This document shows, one piece after another, positions 1 through 62,854 of a DNA stretch of 64,000 bases. This stretch comes from Thomasclavelia cocleata. GTDB taxonomy: Bacteria; Bacillota_I; Bacilli_A; Erysipelotrichales; Coprobacillaceae. The notes beneath the pieces were generated by a model. That model did not search any database. It saw nothing but the letters and a program-made list of their open reading frames with translations, and was not told the origin of the DNA. Location of the stretch: positions 164,064-228,063 of the forward strand of contig NZ_FOIN01000001.1 of the NCBI RefSeq assembly GCF_900102365.1, read 5' to 3'. How positions within the stretch are numbered: position 1 is the stretch's first letter; each line of letters begins with the position of its first letter. The position numbers and the translations under genes were made by a program.

Positions 1-192
1 GGATGTCCAATATTAAAAAAGGGAACTAGAGGTAATCTAACTAAATTACTTCAGGAAAAACTTGGTATTAAAGCAGATGGTATTTTTGGAGATAATACTA
101 AAAATGCAGTAATCAACTACCAAAAAAAACATAGTCTAACTCCTGATGGTATAGTTGGAACCAATACATGGAAAAAGTTATTAAATTTGTAA
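1..192 (+). CDS. Peptidoglycan-binding C-terminal domain, probably of a phage endolysin (5' end outside window)
   Basis: The window opens inside a reading frame that ends at the TAA at 190-192. The visible 63 residues form one PG_binding_1 repeat, with the signatures GIFGDNTKNAV and DGIVGTNTW that this fold uses to bind the cell wall. The catalytic domain lies outside the window, so amidase, lysozyme or peptidase cannot be told apart. The next gene starts one base after the stop. The following genes include a typical phage lysis-cassette protein, so I infer a prophage endolysin. A host spore-cortex or autolysin enzyme is the alternative. Confidence 0.75.
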   Translation, partial: GCPILKKGTRGNLTKLLQEKLGIKADGIFGDNTKNAVINYQKKHSLTPDGIVGTNTWKKLLNL

Positions 193-193
193 T

Positions 194-403
194 ATGAGAT
201 ATTTTACTAAAAATAAGATTATAGGAATGCTGATTATTTTAGTGGCATTCCTATTAATTTTATTATCTGATATATTGACTAGAAATAGAAATTTGGAAGC
301 CAAGATTAAAATCCAAGAGGACATTATAGAGATTAAGAATAATAAAATTAATGAATTAGAAACTGTCAAACAGAATATGGACGAGCAGTTTGGGATTTAT
401 TAA
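194..403 (+). CDS. Small membrane-anchored coiled-coil protein of the phage lysis cassette
   Basis: A 69-residue protein begins one base after the endolysin stop and has no clear ribosome binding site of its own, which suggests translational coupling. Residues 8-25 form one hydrophobic segment (IIGMLIILVAFLLILLSD). The rest is a charged, heptad-like helix ending in FGIY. This layout (one N-terminal anchor, external or cytoplasmic coil) occurs in small phage holin-like or accessory lysis proteins. I do not recognise a named family, so the holin role is inferred only from position. Confidence 0.6.
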   Translation: MRYFTKNKIIGMLIILVAFLLILLSDILTRNRNLEAKIKIQEDIIEIKNNKINELETVKQNMDEQFGIY

Positions 404-427
404 CCAAGTATGTTAAAGGAGAATTAT

Positions 428-613
428 ATGAAAGTAAAAATAGTTCGTGGAGCAAAAGATATTGACCATGATGCCTTAGAAAAGATAGGAGATTACGATG
501 ATGAATTTGAACTAATTGTAGAAGGCAAAGAATTTTCAAGAGTTAGCAATAGGAAAAGTGAATATTGGTTTAAGAATCAATTTCTTATCAAGCAAGATAA
601 TGTAAAAGATTAA
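428..613 (+). CDS. Small acidic hypothetical protein
   Basis: A 61-residue soluble protein (MKVKIVRGAKDIDHDALEKI...). The ATG at 428 is preferred over the upstream in-frame ATG at 410 because AAAGGAG at 415-421 sits at correct distance from 428, whereas 410 lies in front of that site. Composition is rich in Asp, Glu and Lys, with no membrane segment and no Cys. It sits between two phage-type genes on the same strand and is probably co-transcribed with them. I do not recognise a family. Confidence 0.6.
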   Translation: MKVKIVRGAKDIDHDALEKIGDYDDEFELIVEGKEFSRVSNRKSEYWFKNQFLIKQDNVKD

Positions 614-653
614 ACCATTATACAATTTGTAGTGAAAGGAATTATTTGAATAA

Positions 654-1028
654 ATGTTAAATTTTATTGAAGAAAACTTGCCAAGTATAATCGGATTTTT
701 AGGAGCTTTTGGTATAGTTGTTGAGGTATCTCCGATAAAATTGTATCCATTAAGATGGATTGGCAATTTAATCAACGCAGATATAAGAGAAAGATTGGAA
801 TATCATATAAAAGAATCAGATAAAAAAGAGATGAAGAATCTTCGCCACCAAATATTAACTGCCGCTGACGAATTAGAAAATGGAGCAGTGTTCTCTAAAG
901 AAAAATACGAGCATCTAATTGATGCAAATAAAGATTATCACAGTTTAATTGATAAATATGATTTTGATAATGGGTATTTGGATGCAAGGTTTGAATACAT
1001 AATGAAAAAATTTAAAGAACAGTACTAA
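654..1028 (+). CDS. Phage lysis-module protein with N-terminal anchor (holin-associated type)
   Basis: A 124-residue protein. Residues 8-28 (NLPSIIGFLGAFGIVVEVSP) form one membrane segment, followed by SPIKLYPLRWIGNLINADI and a charged helical domain ending in FEYIMKKFKEQY. The combination of a membrane segment, an E-x-[ST]-PIK motif, a W-[IL]-G-x-x-I-N motif and a C-terminal His/Glu-rich helix resembles a family I know from lysis ends of Clostridium and Enterococcus prophages, where its function is undefined. The spacing from GAAAGGA to the ATG is about 13 bases, longer than usual. It is the last gene before a strong terminator, consistent with the end of a late operon. Confidence 0.6.
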   Translation: MLNFIEENLPSIIGFLGAFGIVVEVSPIKLYPLRWIGNLINADIRERLEYHIKESDKKEMKNLRHQILTAADELENGAVFSKEKYEHLIDANKDYHSLIDKYDFDNGYLDARFEYIMKKFKEQY

Positions 1029-1030
1029 AA

Positions 1031-1109
1031 AAAAATAGGGCTGGGATACATTGGTAGATTATTACTTATTTAAAAGTAAATCTAATTAGTATATCCCAGC
1101 CCTATTTTT
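1031..1109. terminator. Bidirectional intrinsic terminator closing the phage operon
   Basis: An 18-base-pair perfect inverted repeat: AAAAATAGGGCTGGGATA at 1031-1048 pairs with 1092-1109, flanked by A- and T-runs so it can work on both strands. The 43-base loop contains a second imperfect stem (TAGATTATTACTT against AAGTAAATCTA). Confidence 0.9.
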
Positions 1110-1149
1110 TTGCATTTTAATAAAATTAAATAAAAAAACACTTTGTATA

Positions 1150-1404
1150 TTATACATTTTGTGTTAAACAAGAGATAATATAATCAAATAAAAAAATAAC
1201 TACCTCATATGTTTTGGAAGCTACGGGATAGTTATTTCTCTTAGTAAATCCAAGGTATAACCATTTATTGGCTGTTCCCTTAGCACCTATATTATAACCC
1301 ACGAACACTTTTAAACTAGCTAATTGAAAAATTTATGATTCAAACATTTTGACATTTAAATCTAATACTATCATAAGATTTTCAAGATTAGCTCTATCCA
1401 AATA
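1150..1404 (-). pseudogene. Decayed gene, C-terminal remnant with in-frame stop
   Basis: The minus strand reads as protein-like sequence for 85 codons, interrupted by one stop (TAA at 1335-1333), with no start codon. The downstream 60 residues contain VFVGYNIGAKG, NKWLYLGFT, YPVASKTYEVV and a final CLTQNV. Composition and codon use look like a real protein rather than noise. I do not recognise the family. Because the frame is closed upstream at 1407-1405 and internally broken, I call it a remnant of a gene that once ran away from the prophage end. Confidence 0.55.
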
Positions 1405-1582
1405 TTATTTTTTCAAAACCACAAAACTAATTTTTAAACATGCATTTTATTACACTGTATCTTTTTGTTGAAAATGTTCAATTAACAAGCGTTATATATG
1501 ATATTTGCGTAAAACTTTTTTGGGTTGTAAAGACATTTTTAATATATTATAAACAATCATTTTTTTCATCTTCTATTATCCG

Positions 1583-1677
1583 CCTATAAAATACTTTATC
1601 TTTTTAATTTTTTATGATAATATTCTTATACATAGTCGAGTCCTCTCTAAATATCATCTACGACTATGTTTTTTTAT
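1583..1677 (+). ncRNA. Candidate small structured RNA / hairpin element, copy 1
   Basis: A 95-base segment begins CCTATAAAA, runs through TTTTTATGATAATAT and ends in a 9-bp stem (ACATAGTCG 1630-1638, CGACTATGT 1661-1669), a 22-base loop and a T-run. A diverged second copy lies at 51943-52037. The stem differs at three positions, each with its paired base also changed, and both loops are 22 bases with GTCCTCTCT conserved. TATGATAAT just upstream could be a -10 box. The 3' end is formally an intrinsic terminator. No gene on the plus strand precedes it that it would obviously terminate. Confidence 0.6.
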
Positions 1678-1699
1678 TTATATTTAATTCATATTTTTA

Positions 1700-1728
1700 T
1701 TTACATAACTATATTTATTTGCTATAAT
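1700..1728 (+). promoter_or_regulatory. SigA-type promoter reading into the CRISPR-like array
   Basis: TTTACA (1700-1705), a 17-base spacer and TATAAT (1723-1728) form a near-perfect vegetative promoter. The expected start point near 1735 coincides with the first base of repeat 1. Confidence 0.8.
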
Positions 1729-1734
1729 ATTAAT

Positions 1735-1884
1735 AGTTAATAGCAACACGAGGTGTATTGAAATTTAGATATAATTTTATATCTTTATTTTAATAATTTA
1801 ATATCAACACATGGTGTATTGAAATTTTATTATTACCTCGATCGATAGCTATAACTTTAATATCAACACAAGGTGTATTGAAAA
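1735..1884 (+). CRISPR. CRISPR-like mini-array A: three repeats, two spacers
   Basis: Three 30-base repeats (1735-1764, 1796-1825, 1855-1884) share TTAATA-CAACAC-GGTGTATTGAAA and end in ATTGAAAT or ATTGAAAA, the 3' handle style of type I-B and III repeats. Each repeat can fold through ACAC/GTGT. The spacers are 31 and 29 bases. The first can fold on itself (AGATATA/TATATCT). The second begins TTTATTATTACCTCGAT, which recurs in the array at 60740-60832. No cas gene is visible. The repeats differ from each other at several positions, unlike a young adaptive array, so this may be a relic or a regulatory crRNA-like gene. Confidence 0.65.
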
Positions 1885-1909
1885 AGAACTTTAAATTAAG
1901 TTCTTTTTC
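1881..1909 (+). terminator. Terminator or attenuator between array A and the zinc-ribbon gene
   Basis: AAAAAGAACTT (1881-1891) pairs perfectly with AAGTTCTTTTT (1899-1909) around a 7-base loop and ends in a T-rich run. The stem begins within the last four bases of the third repeat. No other promoter is obvious before the ribosome binding site of the next gene, so it may work as an attenuator for that gene. Confidence 0.7.
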
Positions 1910-1936
1910 TTTATGTATATTAAAGGAGAGTTTATC

Positions 1937-2263
1937 ATGCAAAAAAAATGCATAGTTTGTGGAAAGATTTTTAATTCCAAAAATGGTGTTATTACTTGCT
2001 CACACGAATGTTATTTAGTAAGAAAAAGAGAACATTATGCTAGAGGAAATTTTACTCGATACAGTGGACAGAAAAAAACAAAAAAATGTCCTGTATGTAA
2101 AAAAATTTTTTATATTGAAAAAAAACATCTTATATATTGTTCTGTAGAATGTAGAGAAATAGCAACTAAAGAAAAAAAGAAAAAATATTTTAAAAATTAT
2201 TACGAAGATAACAAAGGTAAAATAATAGAGCGAGTCAAGCGTAATAATAAAAAGACAATCTAA
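1937..2263 (+). CDS. Small basic protein with two zinc ribbons
   Basis: A 108-residue protein. The ATG at 1937 is chosen over 1913 because AAAGGAG lies just before it. Two copies of a C-x2-C ... C-x3-C module are visible: CIVCGKIF to CSHEC (about residues 4-24) and CPVCKKIF to CSVEC (about 50-71). The C-terminal third is almost entirely Lys, Arg and Asn. Such duplicated ribbons occur in small phage and mobile-element proteins that bind nucleic acid; the function is unknown. It lies immediately downstream of array A and its terminator on the same strand, so its expression may depend on read-through from the array promoter. Confidence 0.7.
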   Translation: MQKKCIVCGKIFNSKNGVITCSHECYLVRKREHYARGNFTRYSGQKKTKKCPVCKKIFYIEKKHLIYCSVECREIATKEKKKKYFKNYYEDNKGKIIERVKRNNKKTI

Positions 2264-2293
2264 ATTAGCGATCATCCTTTTATTTATCTTAAT

Positions 2294-2881
2294 TTAGTCA
2301 ATTTTATATTTAATACCAAAAGAAATTATCAACCTATTGTTATGATACACCTTTAAAGGATATGTTTGCTCTGCTTTATCAGTCAACCCTGAACCAACTA
2401 AAATTGTTTCAAATCTTTTTTTCATTCTTTCAGCCATTCTCATATATAAGTATTTTTTTTCATACTCTGCAAATTTTTCATCTTTTTTAAATGATTTGTG
2501 TAATTCTTCATACAAATCATCAGACGATTTTTCATCATAACTATCACTGTCTTCATCGAAGAAAGGAAAAGCTTTGCAAATGTAGTCAAAAATATAATCT
2601 TTAACACTATCATATTTTTGAAAATGTTCGAAATCATCACTATCTATTAAAATACGCTCGTCTTCATTGGCATATCCTTCACCTATTCTAATAACCCCTC
2701 CACGAAAATCTCCCCATGCATTAAATTCTAATCCAGCAAACACAGAAAGATTTGTGTTGCATTTTTCTTTAAACAAAATAATAGCTTCTATTAAATCTTT
2801 AAAATTTTGTGGTGTATTTTTTATTGTACTTTCTAAATAATTAAATATATTTTCTTTCAATTCTTTTACAGTTAGCTCCAT
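2294..2881 (-). CDS. Hypothetical protein, accessory island
   Basis: A 195-residue soluble acidic protein (MELTVKELKENIFNYLESTI...) with no signal peptide, no membrane segment and no catalytic motif that I can recognise. The middle is Asp/Glu-rich (FFDEDSDSYDEKSSDD). AAAGGAG precedes its ATG, which lies one base after the stop of the upstream gene, so the two form a tight operon. It converges on the zinc-ribbon gene. It could be a phage or island accessory protein of any kind; no function is proposed. Confidence 0.7.
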   Translation of the reverse strand: MELTVKELKENIFNYLESTIKNTPQNFKDLIEAIILFKEKCNTNLSVFAGLEFNAWGDFRGGVIRIGEGYANEDERILIDSDDFEHFQKYDSVKDYIFDYICKAFPFFDEDSDSYDEKSSDDLYEELHKSFKKDEKFAEYEKKYLYMRMAERMKKRFETILVGSGLTDKAEQTYPLKVYHNNRLIISFGIKYKID

Positions 2882-2882
2882 A

Positions 2883-3317
2883 TCATTTCTCCTTTATTTT
2901 TTCATTTAACATTTTTATAATATTATCAATATCCATTCCATCTCTTACAAGACTAACTAAATAATCAATCGAGCTATCAAAATCACTAGGTCTTTTTATT
3001 TTATTAAGAGCGAACCGTTCTGCCATTGCCTCATATCCACATTTTAACAACACTCTATTATTTATGTAAAACCTAGCTTCTTTAATGTTTTCTAACATAT
3101 AATTAATTACTACCAAGTTAACGATTATGGGTGTTAATCTTTTTTTGTCAAATTTGTAGGCTACAAATTCATTTACTAACTCAACATAAGTTTTTCTTAT
3201 GTCATTAGCCCATAAAATTTGTTTTTCACTTCCTTCCAATATTGGAAGTTTTTTTATTATTTCACAATATTTATTTTTTACTTCTTCAGCTCTATTTATT
3301 CTTTCTTCTAGATTCAT
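2883..3317 (-). CDS. Conserved hypothetical protein with GSEKQI-x-WA motif
   Basis: A 144-residue protein. Residues 27-40 (EGSEKQILWANDIR) match a motif I associate with a family of uncharacterised proteins on Firmicute prophages and integrative elements, where GSEKQI-x-WA precedes a helical domain. The rest is helical and charged, ending in KEK. The start is preceded by a run of six G that can serve as ribosome binding site. It is the first gene of a two-gene operon, and its promoter region carries five GTAC-core boxes. Confidence 0.7.
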   Translation of the reverse strand: MNLEERINRAEEVKNKYCEIIKKLPILEGSEKQILWANDIRKTYVELVNEFVAYKFDKKRLTPIIVNLVVINYMLENIKEARFYINNRVLLKCGYEAMAERFALNKIKRPSDFDSSIDYLVSLVRDGMDIDNIIKMLNEKIKEK

Positions 3318-3347
3318 TTCTTTATCCCCCCATGAACATTTTTGTTT

Positions 3348-3432
3348 GTACTTTAATTATATAGTACTACATTATAGTTCAACAATTCCAAGTATTACTG
3401 GATTCTACATGTACTATCTGTACCTTGTACTA
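3348..3432. promoter_or_regulatory. Cluster of five GTAC-core boxes upstream of the minus-strand operon
   Basis: GTACTT (3348), GTACTA (3364, 3411, 3427) and GTACCT (3420) lie within 85 bases, in front of the gene starting at 3317. This density is well above what such an AT-rich stretch should give by chance, but I did not test it statistically. They resemble the GTACCA boxes at 4802-4850. Confidence 0.4.
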
Positions 3433-3453
3433 CATTTAAATTTAAATACTAAA

Positions 3454-3741
3454 TTATTTTAGCATAAATTCTCTTTTATACTCTCTAAACGATTCCATCA
3501 GTGTGTTGAATTCCAAGGTAGAAATATCAACATCTTGTACTATTTTGTCTATTACTTCTTTATTATTCAGCATTATTTCTTCAATATATTTATTAGCTGC
3601 TTTATTACCTTTGGAAATAACCATCATATAATCATAAATCTGCTTGTACATATCATCATTCATAAACATAATCCAATTATGACAATTTGTAATATCTATT
3701 ATGTTAATTATATTTCTTGCTATCAATTCTCTATCTTTCAT
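3454..3741 (-). CDS. Small hypothetical protein
   Basis: A 95-residue protein starting at the ATG at 3741; AGGTG lies about six bases upstream, and an in-frame GTG at 3750 is the less likely alternative. It is helical, Met- and Ile-rich (WIMFMNDDMYKQIYDYMMVI), with no signal peptide and no recognised domain. It lies between the GTAC-box region and a DUF2513-like gene on the same strand, and is probably part of the same mobile island. Confidence 0.6.
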   Translation of the reverse strand: MKDRELIARNIINIIDITNCHNWIMFMNDDMYKQIYDYMMVISKGNKAANKYIEEIMLNNKEVIDKIVQDVDISTLEFNTLMESFREYKREFMLK

Positions 3742-3824
3742 TTTTATCACCTGCTATTATATAATAAAAATAGTATTCACTTTACTAGTGTTATAATTAT
3801 CATCATGTTGTAAATGATATTTTT

Positions 3825-4223
3825 TTACAACCCTAGTTTTTGTTGCAGTATTTTTAATGCTATCGCTTTAACTATATCAAGTGTCACACTTGAGCTAATA
3901 TCGTTTATTTTATCCATAACCATACTAAACACTTTTTGACTTCTAATTGTATCTAAAAACTGATGTCCCTCAAAAGTCAACTCAGTAATATATGATGTAC
4001 TAACCAAACCGCCTCTTGAAAACTTTAATACACCTACTATATAATTTGCATCTATCAATTTTTTTAATGTGTATATTAAATCATTTTTATTAAAATGTTT
4101 TAAATATGAACAGTTTAATAAATCTTGTATATGTATGTAATTAAACACACCTTGGTCATTTACAAAAGATAATTTTTCAATAGCCAATAAAACGTTTCGT
4201 ATATTTTCAACTTTTAATTCCAT
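3825..4223 (-). CDS. DUF2513-like protein
   Basis: A 132-residue protein with a winged-helix look: an N-terminal segment ENIRNVLLAIEKL, a central YTLKKLIDANYIVG and then ELTFEGHQFLDTIR, followed by a C-terminal amphipathic helix (DIVKAIALKILQQ). The order 'helix, L-I-x-A/S-x-Y/F-I, L-T-x-x-G-H-x-F-L-x-x-I-R' is the pattern of DUF2513, a family common in phage and island accessory regions and probably DNA-binding; no biochemical function is established. GAGGGATGATAA precedes the ATG. Confidence 0.7.
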   Translation of the reverse strand: MELKVENIRNVLLAIEKLSFVNDQGVFNYIHIQDLLNCSYLKHFNKNDLIYTLKKLIDANYIVGVLKFSRGGLVSTSYITELTFEGHQFLDTIRSQKVFSMVMDKINDISSSVTLDIVKAIALKILQQKLGL

Positions 4224-51309: not shown

Positions 51310-51528
51310 TTATTTTGATTGATTATAATTAGATGAACTCATTTGAGATTGTCCCATAGCTACTAATCTTTTAGTGATTTCGCCACCTACAGAACCATTC
51401 GCACGAGATGTTGCATCAGGACCTAAATTAACGCCAAATTCGTTTGCAATTTCGTATTTCATTTGATCAATTGCATTTTGAGCTCCAGGAACAACTAATT
51501 TGTTTCTGCTAGAGTTATTTTGTGACAT
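51310..51528 (-). CDS. Alpha/beta-type small acid-soluble spore protein, copy 1
   Basis: A 72-residue DNA-binding protein that saturates and protects the spore chromosome. Seen: [20 protein letters not shown], the germination-protease site [11 protein letters not shown], and [12 protein letters not shown] with the conserved GG-x-x-x-[KR] helix. AGGAGGTGAAACTAT precedes the ATG. Differs from the copy at 53717 at only a few residues (ATSRANGS versus TTARENGS, and the C-terminal [10 protein letters not shown]). Confidence 0.97.
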
Positions 51529-53716: not shown

Positions 53717-53938
53717 CTATTTAGATTGATTATAACGACTTGATGAAGTCATTTGTTTTTGTCCCATCTCAACTAATCTTTTTGTAATTTCGCCACCGAC
53801 AGAACCGTTTTCACGAGCAGTTGTATCAGGACCTAAATTAACGCCAAATTCGTTTGCAATTTCGTATTTCATTTGATCAATTGCATTTTGAGCTCCGGGA
53901 ACAACTAATTTGTTTCTACTAGAGTTATTTTGTGACAT
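53717..53938 (-). CDS. Alpha/beta-type small acid-soluble spore protein, copy 2
   Basis: A 73-residue spore DNA-protecting protein nearly identical to that at 51310-51528: same N-terminus [20 protein letters not shown], same protease site [11 protein letters not shown], then [32 protein letters not shown] before the ATG is identical as well. The two genes are 2.4 kb apart on the same strand, with decayed DNA and an opposing gene pair between them, consistent with a local gene family. Confidence 0.97.
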
Positions 53939-60687: not shown

Positions 60688-60739
60688 AAATTACTTTAAA
60701 ACTAAAAAAAACAATATAACCTAAAGCTAGTTTATACTG

Positions 60740-60832
60740 GTTTTTATACATCTTATGTTGTTATTAACCATAATATCATAGCCCAATCGAGGTAATGATA
60801 AAATTTCAATACATTCTATGTTGTTATTAAAC
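60740..60832 (-). CRISPR. CRISPR-like mini-array B: two repeats, one spacer
   Basis: On the minus strand the first repeat (60832-60803) is GTTTAATAACAACATAG...ATGTATTGAAAT and the second (60769-60740) is the same with degenerate ends, as expected at the far end of an array. The 33-base spacer starts TTTATCATTACCTCGAT, matching spacer 2 of array A at 16 of the first 17 bases. Repeats match those of array A at about 24 of 30 positions, with the ACAC/GTGT stem replaced by ACAT/ATGT. No cas genes nearby. Confidence 0.6.
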
Positions 60833-60859
60833 TCTAATAAATAAGCTACTTTATATTCA

Positions 60860-60865
60860 ATTATA
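60860..60865 (-). promoter_or_regulatory. Candidate -10 box upstream of array B
   Basis: TATAAT on the minus strand, 28 bases before the first repeat. A -35 box is not convincing (TTGATA at 14 bases spacing). Confidence 0.4.
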
Positions 60866-61263
60866 CTACAATCCCTCTATATCAAGAATTTTATATTTTT
60901 TAATCCTGTACTTTGATTAGCCTACCTACTTAAATCATATAAAAAACTTAAATTCCTTGCAATCAAACTAATTATACAACAGGCAATCATTAATTTCAAA
61001 TCTAGACTTAAATGAATTAGTTTTTCCTAAGTTAGAATAAAATTACCAATCAATAATTCAAATAAATAAAAAATAGTGAGATTTTATATACTTTAACGTA
61101 AATGCTAAATTATATTAATATAATTTATAAAGATTTATATAAATTTTTATTAAAATAATAATTACAGATAATGAATCATTTTATCACAAAATAGTTGAAT
61201 AAAGTAAACTTTTCTTTCTCATTGATAGTGAATCTTTATTGATTTTTTCAATTGTTTTGTTAA

Positions 61264-61424
61264 TTATTCATCAATTACTTGATAATAACCCGTATTTGCT
61301 TCACCCATGATTATTGGACATATCTTTAACCACTTAGTAAAATATTCTAAATAAAATAATAAAATCGCATTTTTTAATACAATCTTTCGCTACTTCCACC
61401 AAAGTGAGCAAAAATAATTTGATT
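61264..61424 (-). pseudogene. Frameshifted C-terminal gene remnant (HFGGS motif)
   Basis: The minus strand reads NQIIFAHFGGSSERLY then a stop. One base out of frame it continues VLKNAILLFYLEYFTKWLKI, then CPIIMGEANTGYYQVIDE and a stop at 61264. The shift lies near a TATTAAAAAA run. The AHFGGS stretch recalls metal-dependent hydrolases, but the piece is too short to assign. No start or ribosome binding site. Confidence 0.45.
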
Positions 61425-61539
61425 ATTTCACATATTAAACTACCTTTATTATAACATTAATAATAATAATTTTCCTAAACTCTTGCTGTTTTCTATTTTC
61501 ATTCCCTTTCTTTTGTGCACATTTTTGGACTTAATATAT

Positions 61540-61583
61540 ATTTCAATTTTGAAATCATTGTTCCTATAATGTGATCTAATGTA
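61540..61583 (+). promoter_or_regulatory. Promoter-like region with ATTTCAA/TTGAAAT palindrome
   Basis: ATTTCAA (61540-61546) and TTGAAAT (61549-61555) form an inverted repeat about 10-20 bases before a TATAAT. AAAGGAGG follows near 61600, but the next bases (AAGTATACC) give no ATG, GTG or TTG start: probably the control region of a lost gene. Confidence 0.35.
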
Positions 61584-62092
61584 ATGAAAGTTAAATAGGG
61601 AAAGGAGGAAGTATACCAATAGAAGCAAGACTAGTTTTTTAGAATACATAACAAGTAATCTAGGCCATATATGACAAATTTTTTCGAATTAAATTTAGGT
61701 TTAATGGATTTATGATGCATATAAGTAGCCCTCTATTGTATCTAAACTATATATTCGAAATAAGAAAAGTTGAATATAAACAGACAGTTTAACACTAATG
61801 TTCAGGTAGTTTATTTTTTTTTATCGTAGATAAATATCTTGTAATGAGTCATCCATTGTAAAAAAGAAACAGTTCCTAATTTCTATTTCAAAAAATACTA
61901 ATCTGAATAAGTTGTTATAAATTTCTAATGAAATTGGAAAGTTTTTGTTCTTATAATAAATAACTAAGCAAGAACTCATTTATAAATGAAACAACCATAT
62001 ATATTGAAAAATATTGGCACAGTTGAAAAAGGATAGACTATCTAGACTTTGCCTATTTCATTTTGTATTTGTAGTTAACTACATATTTATTT

Positions 62093-62135
62093 TATGCAAA
62101 ATATGCATAAATGTCAATATGCGCAATATGCATAA
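62093..62135. promoter_or_regulatory. Two operator copies upstream of the XRE regulator
   Basis: TATGCAAAATATGCATAA (62093-62110) and TATGCGCAATATGCATAA (62118-62135) are 18-base copies spaced exactly 25 bases, each with an internal TATGCA/TGCATA inverted repeat. Likely autoregulatory operators. Confidence 0.65.
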
Positions 62136-62156
62136 GTTAAAATTAGTTGGAGGACT

Positions 62157-62387
62157 ATGAAAATGAAAGCAAATAAATTGCTTGATTTAAGAGAAGATAA
62201 GAACTTGACCCAGGCTGATATTGCAAAAACATTGAATGTCAATCAAACCACTTATTCGAGATATGAACGTGGTGATATTAACATACCACTTGATATTTTA
62301 ATTAAAATGGCATTATTCTTTAATACAAGTATCGATTATATTCTAAATTTAACAAATGAGAAAAAGCCTTATAAAAGAAAAAGATAA
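62157..62387 (+). CDS. XRE-family helix-turn-helix regulator
   Basis: A 76-residue Cro/CI-type DNA-binding protein, single HTH domain: LREDKNLTQADIAKTLNVNQ, TTYSRYERGDINIPLDILIK, FFNTSIDYILNLT, then a basic tail KKPYKRKR. The domain covers nearly the whole protein, as in small phage or toxin-antitoxin repressors. TTGGAGGAC precedes the ATG at 62157 (a second ATG at 62163 is possible). Two matching operators lie just upstream. No partner gene is intact, so it may be the survivor of a lost element. Confidence 0.9.
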   Translation: MKMKANKLLDLREDKNLTQADIAKTLNVNQTTYSRYERGDINIPLDILIKMALFFNTSIDYILNLTNEKKPYKRKR

Positions 62388-62854
62388 AATAATATAATGA
62401 TATTAATCTTTTATATGTAGTTGCGACATCGTCCATAAAATGGACTTTCACCACATAGATATATGCCATGCATACAAAAAGCAGTGAGATCACGATTATA
62501 AAAAGTGATTTTCACTGCTTTGATATTTTTATTAAACTAAAACTATATTCACTCAACTTTTTTCTAAGTTTTATAATTAGCAATTTAATTTCTGATATAA
62601 AGGTAACTAACTTAAATCTATCCCATTACAGTCATCTTAATAACTGTTTTTAATCTATATAACATGAAAAGGAATATACCCCAATATCATAGTCACATAT
62701 AATTATATGCTACCATTTATATATGCATCTATTTATTGAGAAAAAACTATTTTACTAGTTTTTATTCATCAATAAATAATTTTCTATTGGATTCAACTTC
62801 TTCAGCCTCTTTATCAAACACAATATACTTTTTACAATTGACTCTTACATATAT
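62388..62854. other. Intergenic region between the XRE gene and ribF
   Basis: About 470 bases: the hairpin at 62478-62521, then AT-rich sequence with no gene, and at its right end an open stretch in frame with ribF (62762-62854) that follows the ribF stop. Confidence 0.55.
62478..62521 (+). terminator. Nested terminator-like hairpin after the XRE gene
   Basis: AAAGCAGTGA (62478-62487) pairs with TCACTGCTTT (62512-62521); inside, ATCAC (62489-62493) pairs with GTGAT (62505-62509). It is followed by GATATTTTTATT. It can also serve transcripts from the other strand. Confidence 0.65.

Follow-up and report, generated by a model that had tools for sequence, protein, structure and literature searches.

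A prophage array and a solitary host CRISPR unit of Thomasclavelia cocleata share the start of one guide

The window analysed here, a stretch of 64,000 nucleotides of the Thomasclavelia cocleata genome (contig NZ_FOIN01000001.1, positions 164,064 to 228,063), holds two small CRISPR units at distant loci: array A, located in a prophage, and array B, judging by its sequence a solitary host CRISPR unit with a leader. When the spacers are aligned from the adjoining repeat, spacer 2 of array A and the only spacer of array B are identical at positions 1-19 except 6 and 18. An earlier note on this DNA had claimed a shared spacer start at two distant loci, and our analysis bears this out: the observation is real, it is not due to chance, and the two units belong to known kinds. 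Our leading reading, held tentatively and stopping a little short of probable, is that array A works as a phage-borne mini-CRISPR array and provides the host Cascade with guides, probably against a competing element, and that array B is a unit of the host. The finding is of moderate interest, because the search for a target came back empty and the pair is carried by one species only.

On contig C46 the genome (2.96 Mb, 88 contigs) has the full type I-B operon cas6-cas8b-cas7-cas5-cas3-cas4-cas1-cas2 and, behind it, an array whose repeat matches. There are five ordinary host arrays (on C46, C24, C43, C52 and C62), the last of which has a single spacer; the host type I-B repeat is GTTTAATAACAACATAAGATGTATTGAAAC or a one-base variant of it (arrays on C24, C43, C52 and C62). 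The host spacers are 34-37 nt long, apart from one of 54 nt, spacer 6 of the C24 array (L029:9155-9240); its second half reproduces that array's own spacer 2 except for one change, which would fit a fusion of two spacers. A type III-A locus is found on contig C37, and two more cas1 genes (C46:42864 and C65:19162) are more divergent than those of the I-B and III-A loci. Since the genome has a complete I-B operon and arrays with a related repeat, arrays A and B sit where processing is possible.

Array A, on the plus strand (1735-1884), is built of three repeats with two spacers between them, at a repeat spacing of 61 and 59 nt, and is devoid of a CRISPR leader. Its features and those of its surroundings are as follows.

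1-4223, no strand: right part of the prophage, with lysis and moron genes, holding array A (left part in L036; viral contigs L051 and L052)
1700-1728, plus strand: predicted array A promoter, TTTACA-17-TATAAT with TG ahead of the -10 (11/12 consensus match)
1735-1764, plus strand: repeat 1, 7/30 differences from the host repeat, stem ACAC/GTGT
1765-1795, plus strand: spacer 1, 31 nt, very AT-rich and self-complementary
1796-1825, plus strand: repeat 2, 6/30 differences from the host repeat, stem ACAC/GTGT
1826-1854, plus strand: spacer 2, TTTATTATTACCTCGATCGATAGCTATAA, 29 nt, its first 19 positions shared with the array B spacer except 6 and 18
1855-1884, plus strand: repeat 3, 5/30 differences from the host repeat, stem ACAC/GTGT
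1880-1909, plus strand: predicted intrinsic terminator, a 12-bp stem and a T run (0.0 expected in shuffles)

In each of the three array A repeats, C15-G19 takes the place of the hairpin pair T15-A19 of the host repeat, and the ATTGAAA handle is unchanged. The intermediate pair T-G occurs in the repeat of a related genus (G011), so the array A repeats may derive from the array type of a relative, as opposed to having decayed within the present host. Spacer 1 looks eroded. To the left of the array, at 1029-1111, lies an inverted repeat, about 83 nt long with a T run at its end, which is probably a bidirectional terminator.

Array A sits near the right end of the prophage, directly to the right of its genes for tail proteins, lysis and endolysin. 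In IMG/VR the prophage is present as two proviruses, L051 and L052, which carry the array at an identity of at least 99.9%. The 116-aa gene adjoining the array, used to seek related phages, matched only the same provirus. No cas1 was found on the prophage contig, and none was recognised among the prophage genes read.

Array B is a type I-B CRISPR unit of two repeats and one spacer on the minus strand (60832-60740), located in an insertion between eamA and ribF.

60709-62854, no strand: insertion of 2.1 kb with array B, between eamA and ribF, absent from eight congeners
60833-60901, minus strand: array B leader, a homologue of the leader found at the five host arrays
60803-60832, minus strand: first repeat, GTTTAATAACAACATAGAATGTATTGAAAT, 27/30 identity to the host I-B repeat, stem ACAT/ATGT, handle ATTGAAAT intact
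60770-60802, minus strand: spacer, TTTATCATTACCTCGATTGGGCTATGATATTAT, 33 nt, positions 1-19 shared with array A spacer 2 except 6 and 18
60740-60769, minus strand: last repeat, GGTTAATAACAACATAAGATGTATAAAAAC, handle decayed to ATAAAAAC, like the last repeat of the phage mini-array L061

Both repeats match the repeat of the cognate I-B cas locus (C46) at 27/30 positions, and the leader with the first repeat is 83% identical to the array of the cas operon (query 99-197, C46:63655-63757). In the alignment, the array B leader lacks 2 bp between the -35 (TTGATA) and the -10 (TATAAT) relative to the host leaders. Array B thus resembles ordinary satellite arrays of a type I-B host, such as that on C62, in its host leader, near-consensus repeats and single spacer, but differs from them in the shortened promoter region, in the insertion, and in a guide shared with a prophage. 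In the eight congeners without the insertion eamA and ribF are adjacent; within it, window positions 62419-62490 match multicopy sequences of several relatives and are possibly left over from a mobile intron or mobile element. Rfam yielded nothing at threshold, a sub-threshold CRISPR-DR27 match on one array B repeat, and chance miRNA matches on a terminator-like inverted repeat.

The 17-mer common to the two spacers has only two locations in the 2.96-Mb genome, array A spacer 2 and the array B spacer, the next best sites having two mismatches. Anchored matches at 16 or more of 17 positions would arise by chance with a probability of about 1.5e-8 for one spacer pair and about 2e-5 over all the pairs examined. 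Together, the genome-wide count and this probability rule out a chance origin. The strength of the match comes from its anchoring to the repeat and its single mismatch; in a DNA search allowing three mismatches it is not significant alone. The 'GCTAT core' that had also been described as shared is five bases long and offset by two, and carries no weight. Beyond position 19 the spacers diverge: 8 of 10 positions differ over 20-29, versus 2 of 19 before (Fisher p 0.0004). Both exceptions fall at multiples of six, which has a probability of 1.8% by chance given two mismatches. Cascade of type I complexes leaves position 18 unread. Positions 6 and 12 are likewise dispensable in the pairing of type I-B CreA (PMC8501985). 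In frame 1, moreover, positions 6 and 18 fall on the third base of a codon and the changes are synonymous (FIITSI; 8.8% by chance), and two mismatches are a small sample; for both reasons the pattern is only suggestive as a sign of guide constraint.

We propose that array A would be transcribed from its own predicted promoter and that, as its repeats keep the hairpin and the 5' handle needed by the host Cas6b and Cascade, the host I-B machinery would make two crRNA-like guides from it. The guides from A and B would both start 5'-AUUGAAAU and, sharing the PAM-proximal 19 nt apart from two positions that Cascade would not read, would bind the same DNA. Neither the chromosome nor the carrying prophage shows an outstanding site for the shared guide, and the target would therefore most likely be another mobile element; array A would most likely serve superinfection exclusion by the prophage. 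The competitor is hypothetical, because neither spacer yielded a protospacer. The shared guide could have arisen when the phage array recombined with a host array resembling B, or both could have sampled the same invader family. The short spacers of array A (29 and 31 nt, against 34-37 nt and one of 54 nt in the host) count against a working mini-array, as do the eroded appearance of spacer 1 and the deletion in the array B leader; both units could be relics.

Virus-borne mini-CRISPR arrays (PMC6858448, PMC11656645) resemble array A in their one or two spacers, in a virus that carries no cas genes and in which no target turned up, and in repeats that the host system can use. Array A differs in being leaderless, in repeats that diverge at 5-7 of 30 positions, in that no target virus was found, and in one guide sharing its first 19 nt with a host-array guide. 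For leaderless phage mini-arrays, Medvedeva et al. 2019 proposed that spacers are gained by recombination with host arrays (PMC6858448). Action of archaeal virus mini-arrays against other viruses was proposed from reciprocal targeting (PMC6858448), and a review reports that the role of mini-arrays was validated in competition experiments (PMC11656645). The phage mini-arrays reviewed there have repeats identical to those of the host (PMC11656645), a point against our reading of array A. Array A, with two spacers on a cas-free viral genome and repeats not identical to the host's, would thus work like a mini-array and is not a textbook case. Another phage contig (IMGVR 3300006198_000009) carries at L061:2300-2450 a three-repeat, terminator-ended mini-array with spacers unrelated to those of A; its last repeat ends TGTATAAAAA, like that of array B. 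The earlier note had treated A and B as two mini-arrays of equal kind, which does not agree with the leader and insertion of B and the leaderless, prophage-borne, separately promoted and terminated A.

The main rival, which we consider somewhat unlikely, is that the two spacers were acquired independently from homologous protospacers of related invaders and are decaying into relics that have no function today; a common PAM would set the shared start and the divergence of the invaders would produce the differences. The earlier note regarded such sharing as unexpected for independent acquisitions. This expectation fails, since further diverged spacer pairs occur in this genome, as repeated sampling of a phage family predicts: at least three such pairs were found in the host arrays, within one array or between distant arrays (C24_2/C43_5, C43_1/C46_10 and C52_2/C52_5, the last differing at positions 3, 6, 25, 29 and 33). 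C52_2/C52_5 and C24_2/C43_5 are each diverged versions of one protospacer, C43_1 corresponds to C46_10 in reverse complement save for one change, and C24_3 and C46_7 are reverse complements of each other. Sampling the same invader family repeatedly is the norm in this genome. The altered leader of array B also agrees with decay, and the synonymous changes at 6 and 18 fit a codon pattern as well as guide constraint, but no reading frame is open across both spacers. Judged from the sequences, the A/B pair stands out among these pairs by its abrupt end after position 19, its exceptions at multiples of six, and one partner that is leaderless and viral. The abrupt divergence is not seen in the other pairs, ordinary acquisition is hard for a leaderless array, and the Cas6 hairpin of the array A repeats has been kept by paired change; all three argue against this rival.

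Two matches bear on the PAM. Host spacer C43_2 matches C57:123505-123538 (L175:5539, minus strand) at 34/34 positions, with 5'-TCA, in a conjugative-element-like region with pilin-like and sortase-like genes; this self-target suggests that I-B interference is blocked or tolerant. In a congener, a weaker match has CCA in front, and from these two sites only the PAM may be YCA. As a speculation, YCA before the shared guide would read GAGGTAATRATAAATG on the other strand, a ribosome-binding site followed at normal spacing by a start codon. The search for complementary host or phage sequence that the earlier note had called for gave no convincing protospacer in this genome, its relatives or IMG/VR, and neither spacer yielded a protospacer in phage or plasmid collections or in the order; in relatives and viruses, as in the order, no candidate exceeded the control. 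A 31-nt 'Acinetobacter phage' match (H1) proved to be a metabolic gene in an unrelated record, and L221 and L222 were rejected as protospacer candidates because the seed is broken.

Two further readings invoke regulation or selection on the guide, and we hold each to be improbable. According to the first, A and B are CreA-type regulatory guides, with which Cascade, led by the seed to a promoter, represses a gene, the phage copy mimicking the host copy and, for example, keeping a toxin silent. The CreA antitoxin RNA of CreTA (PMC8501985, PMC9458426) is similar in its degenerate ectopic repeats around one short spacer, its conserved PAM-proximal match with position 6 free (here 6 and 18), its type I-B context and its promoter-terminator unit. 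The main test of this reading, an adjacent promoter target, failed: in contrast to CreTA, neither a creT gene nor a promoter target was found beside A or B, and the regions upstream of the two arrays and of cas6 yielded no match to the seed (1-5, 7-11) with a PAM. An 11-nt seed match at 2251 (minus strand), inside the gene downstream of array A, has no YCA PAM. The best chromosomal site, TCA with the full seed match, lies inside agrB and favours a regulatory guide, but a site of this kind is expected about once by chance; seed sites elsewhere in the genome are inside genes and no commoner than in a reversed control. Moreover, B is preceded by a CRISPR leader and not by a toxin gene, and A lies in a prophage.

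According to the second, equally improbable, the prophage guide is a selected crRNA mimic of the solitary host guide, used by the same Cascade on one target through the same 19-nt PAM-proximal stretch, with positions 6 and 18 free to drift, and would usurp the role of a regulatory guide of the host or keep hold of a silencing target common to both. The earlier note had inferred a functional constraint on the spacer. Of that inference, the non-chance sharing stands, concentrated in the PAM-proximal half as expected of a constrained guide; no fixed host target was found for it. A conservation search in the genus recovered the guide from this genome only, and the array B insertion is absent from the eight congeners.

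More doubtful still is that array A acts as a decoy, an RNA anti-CRISPR whose repeat-like RNA would occupy Cas6 and Cas7 and block host immunity, the spacer match being incidental. Like the Racr RNA anti-CRISPRs (PMC10651486), it is a prophage-encoded element with CRISPR-like repeats, its own promoter and terminator and a preserved hairpin, and the perfect self-target with a plausible PAM on C57 is tolerated as if interference were inhibited. Known Racrs, however, are solitary repeats, unlike the three repeats and two spacer-sized gaps of A, and a decoy has no need of a seed in common with B. Descent of both loci from a single duplicated RNA gene, the other origin offered in the earlier note, is contradicted by the different flanks, the leader on B only, and the promoter, terminator and prophage setting of A; the choice between function and duplication was too narrow.

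The pair offers a concrete case of a prophage array with a guide whose first 19 nt recur in a host guide, and with diverged repeats that retain their hairpin through paired change. In such a case, gain by recombination, seed-limited selection on guides and chance re-sampling of one invader could be distinguished.

Elsewhere in the window, two near-identical genes of 72-73 aa on the minus strand (51310-51528 and 53717-53938), about 2.2 kb apart, resemble those of small acid-soluble spore proteins.
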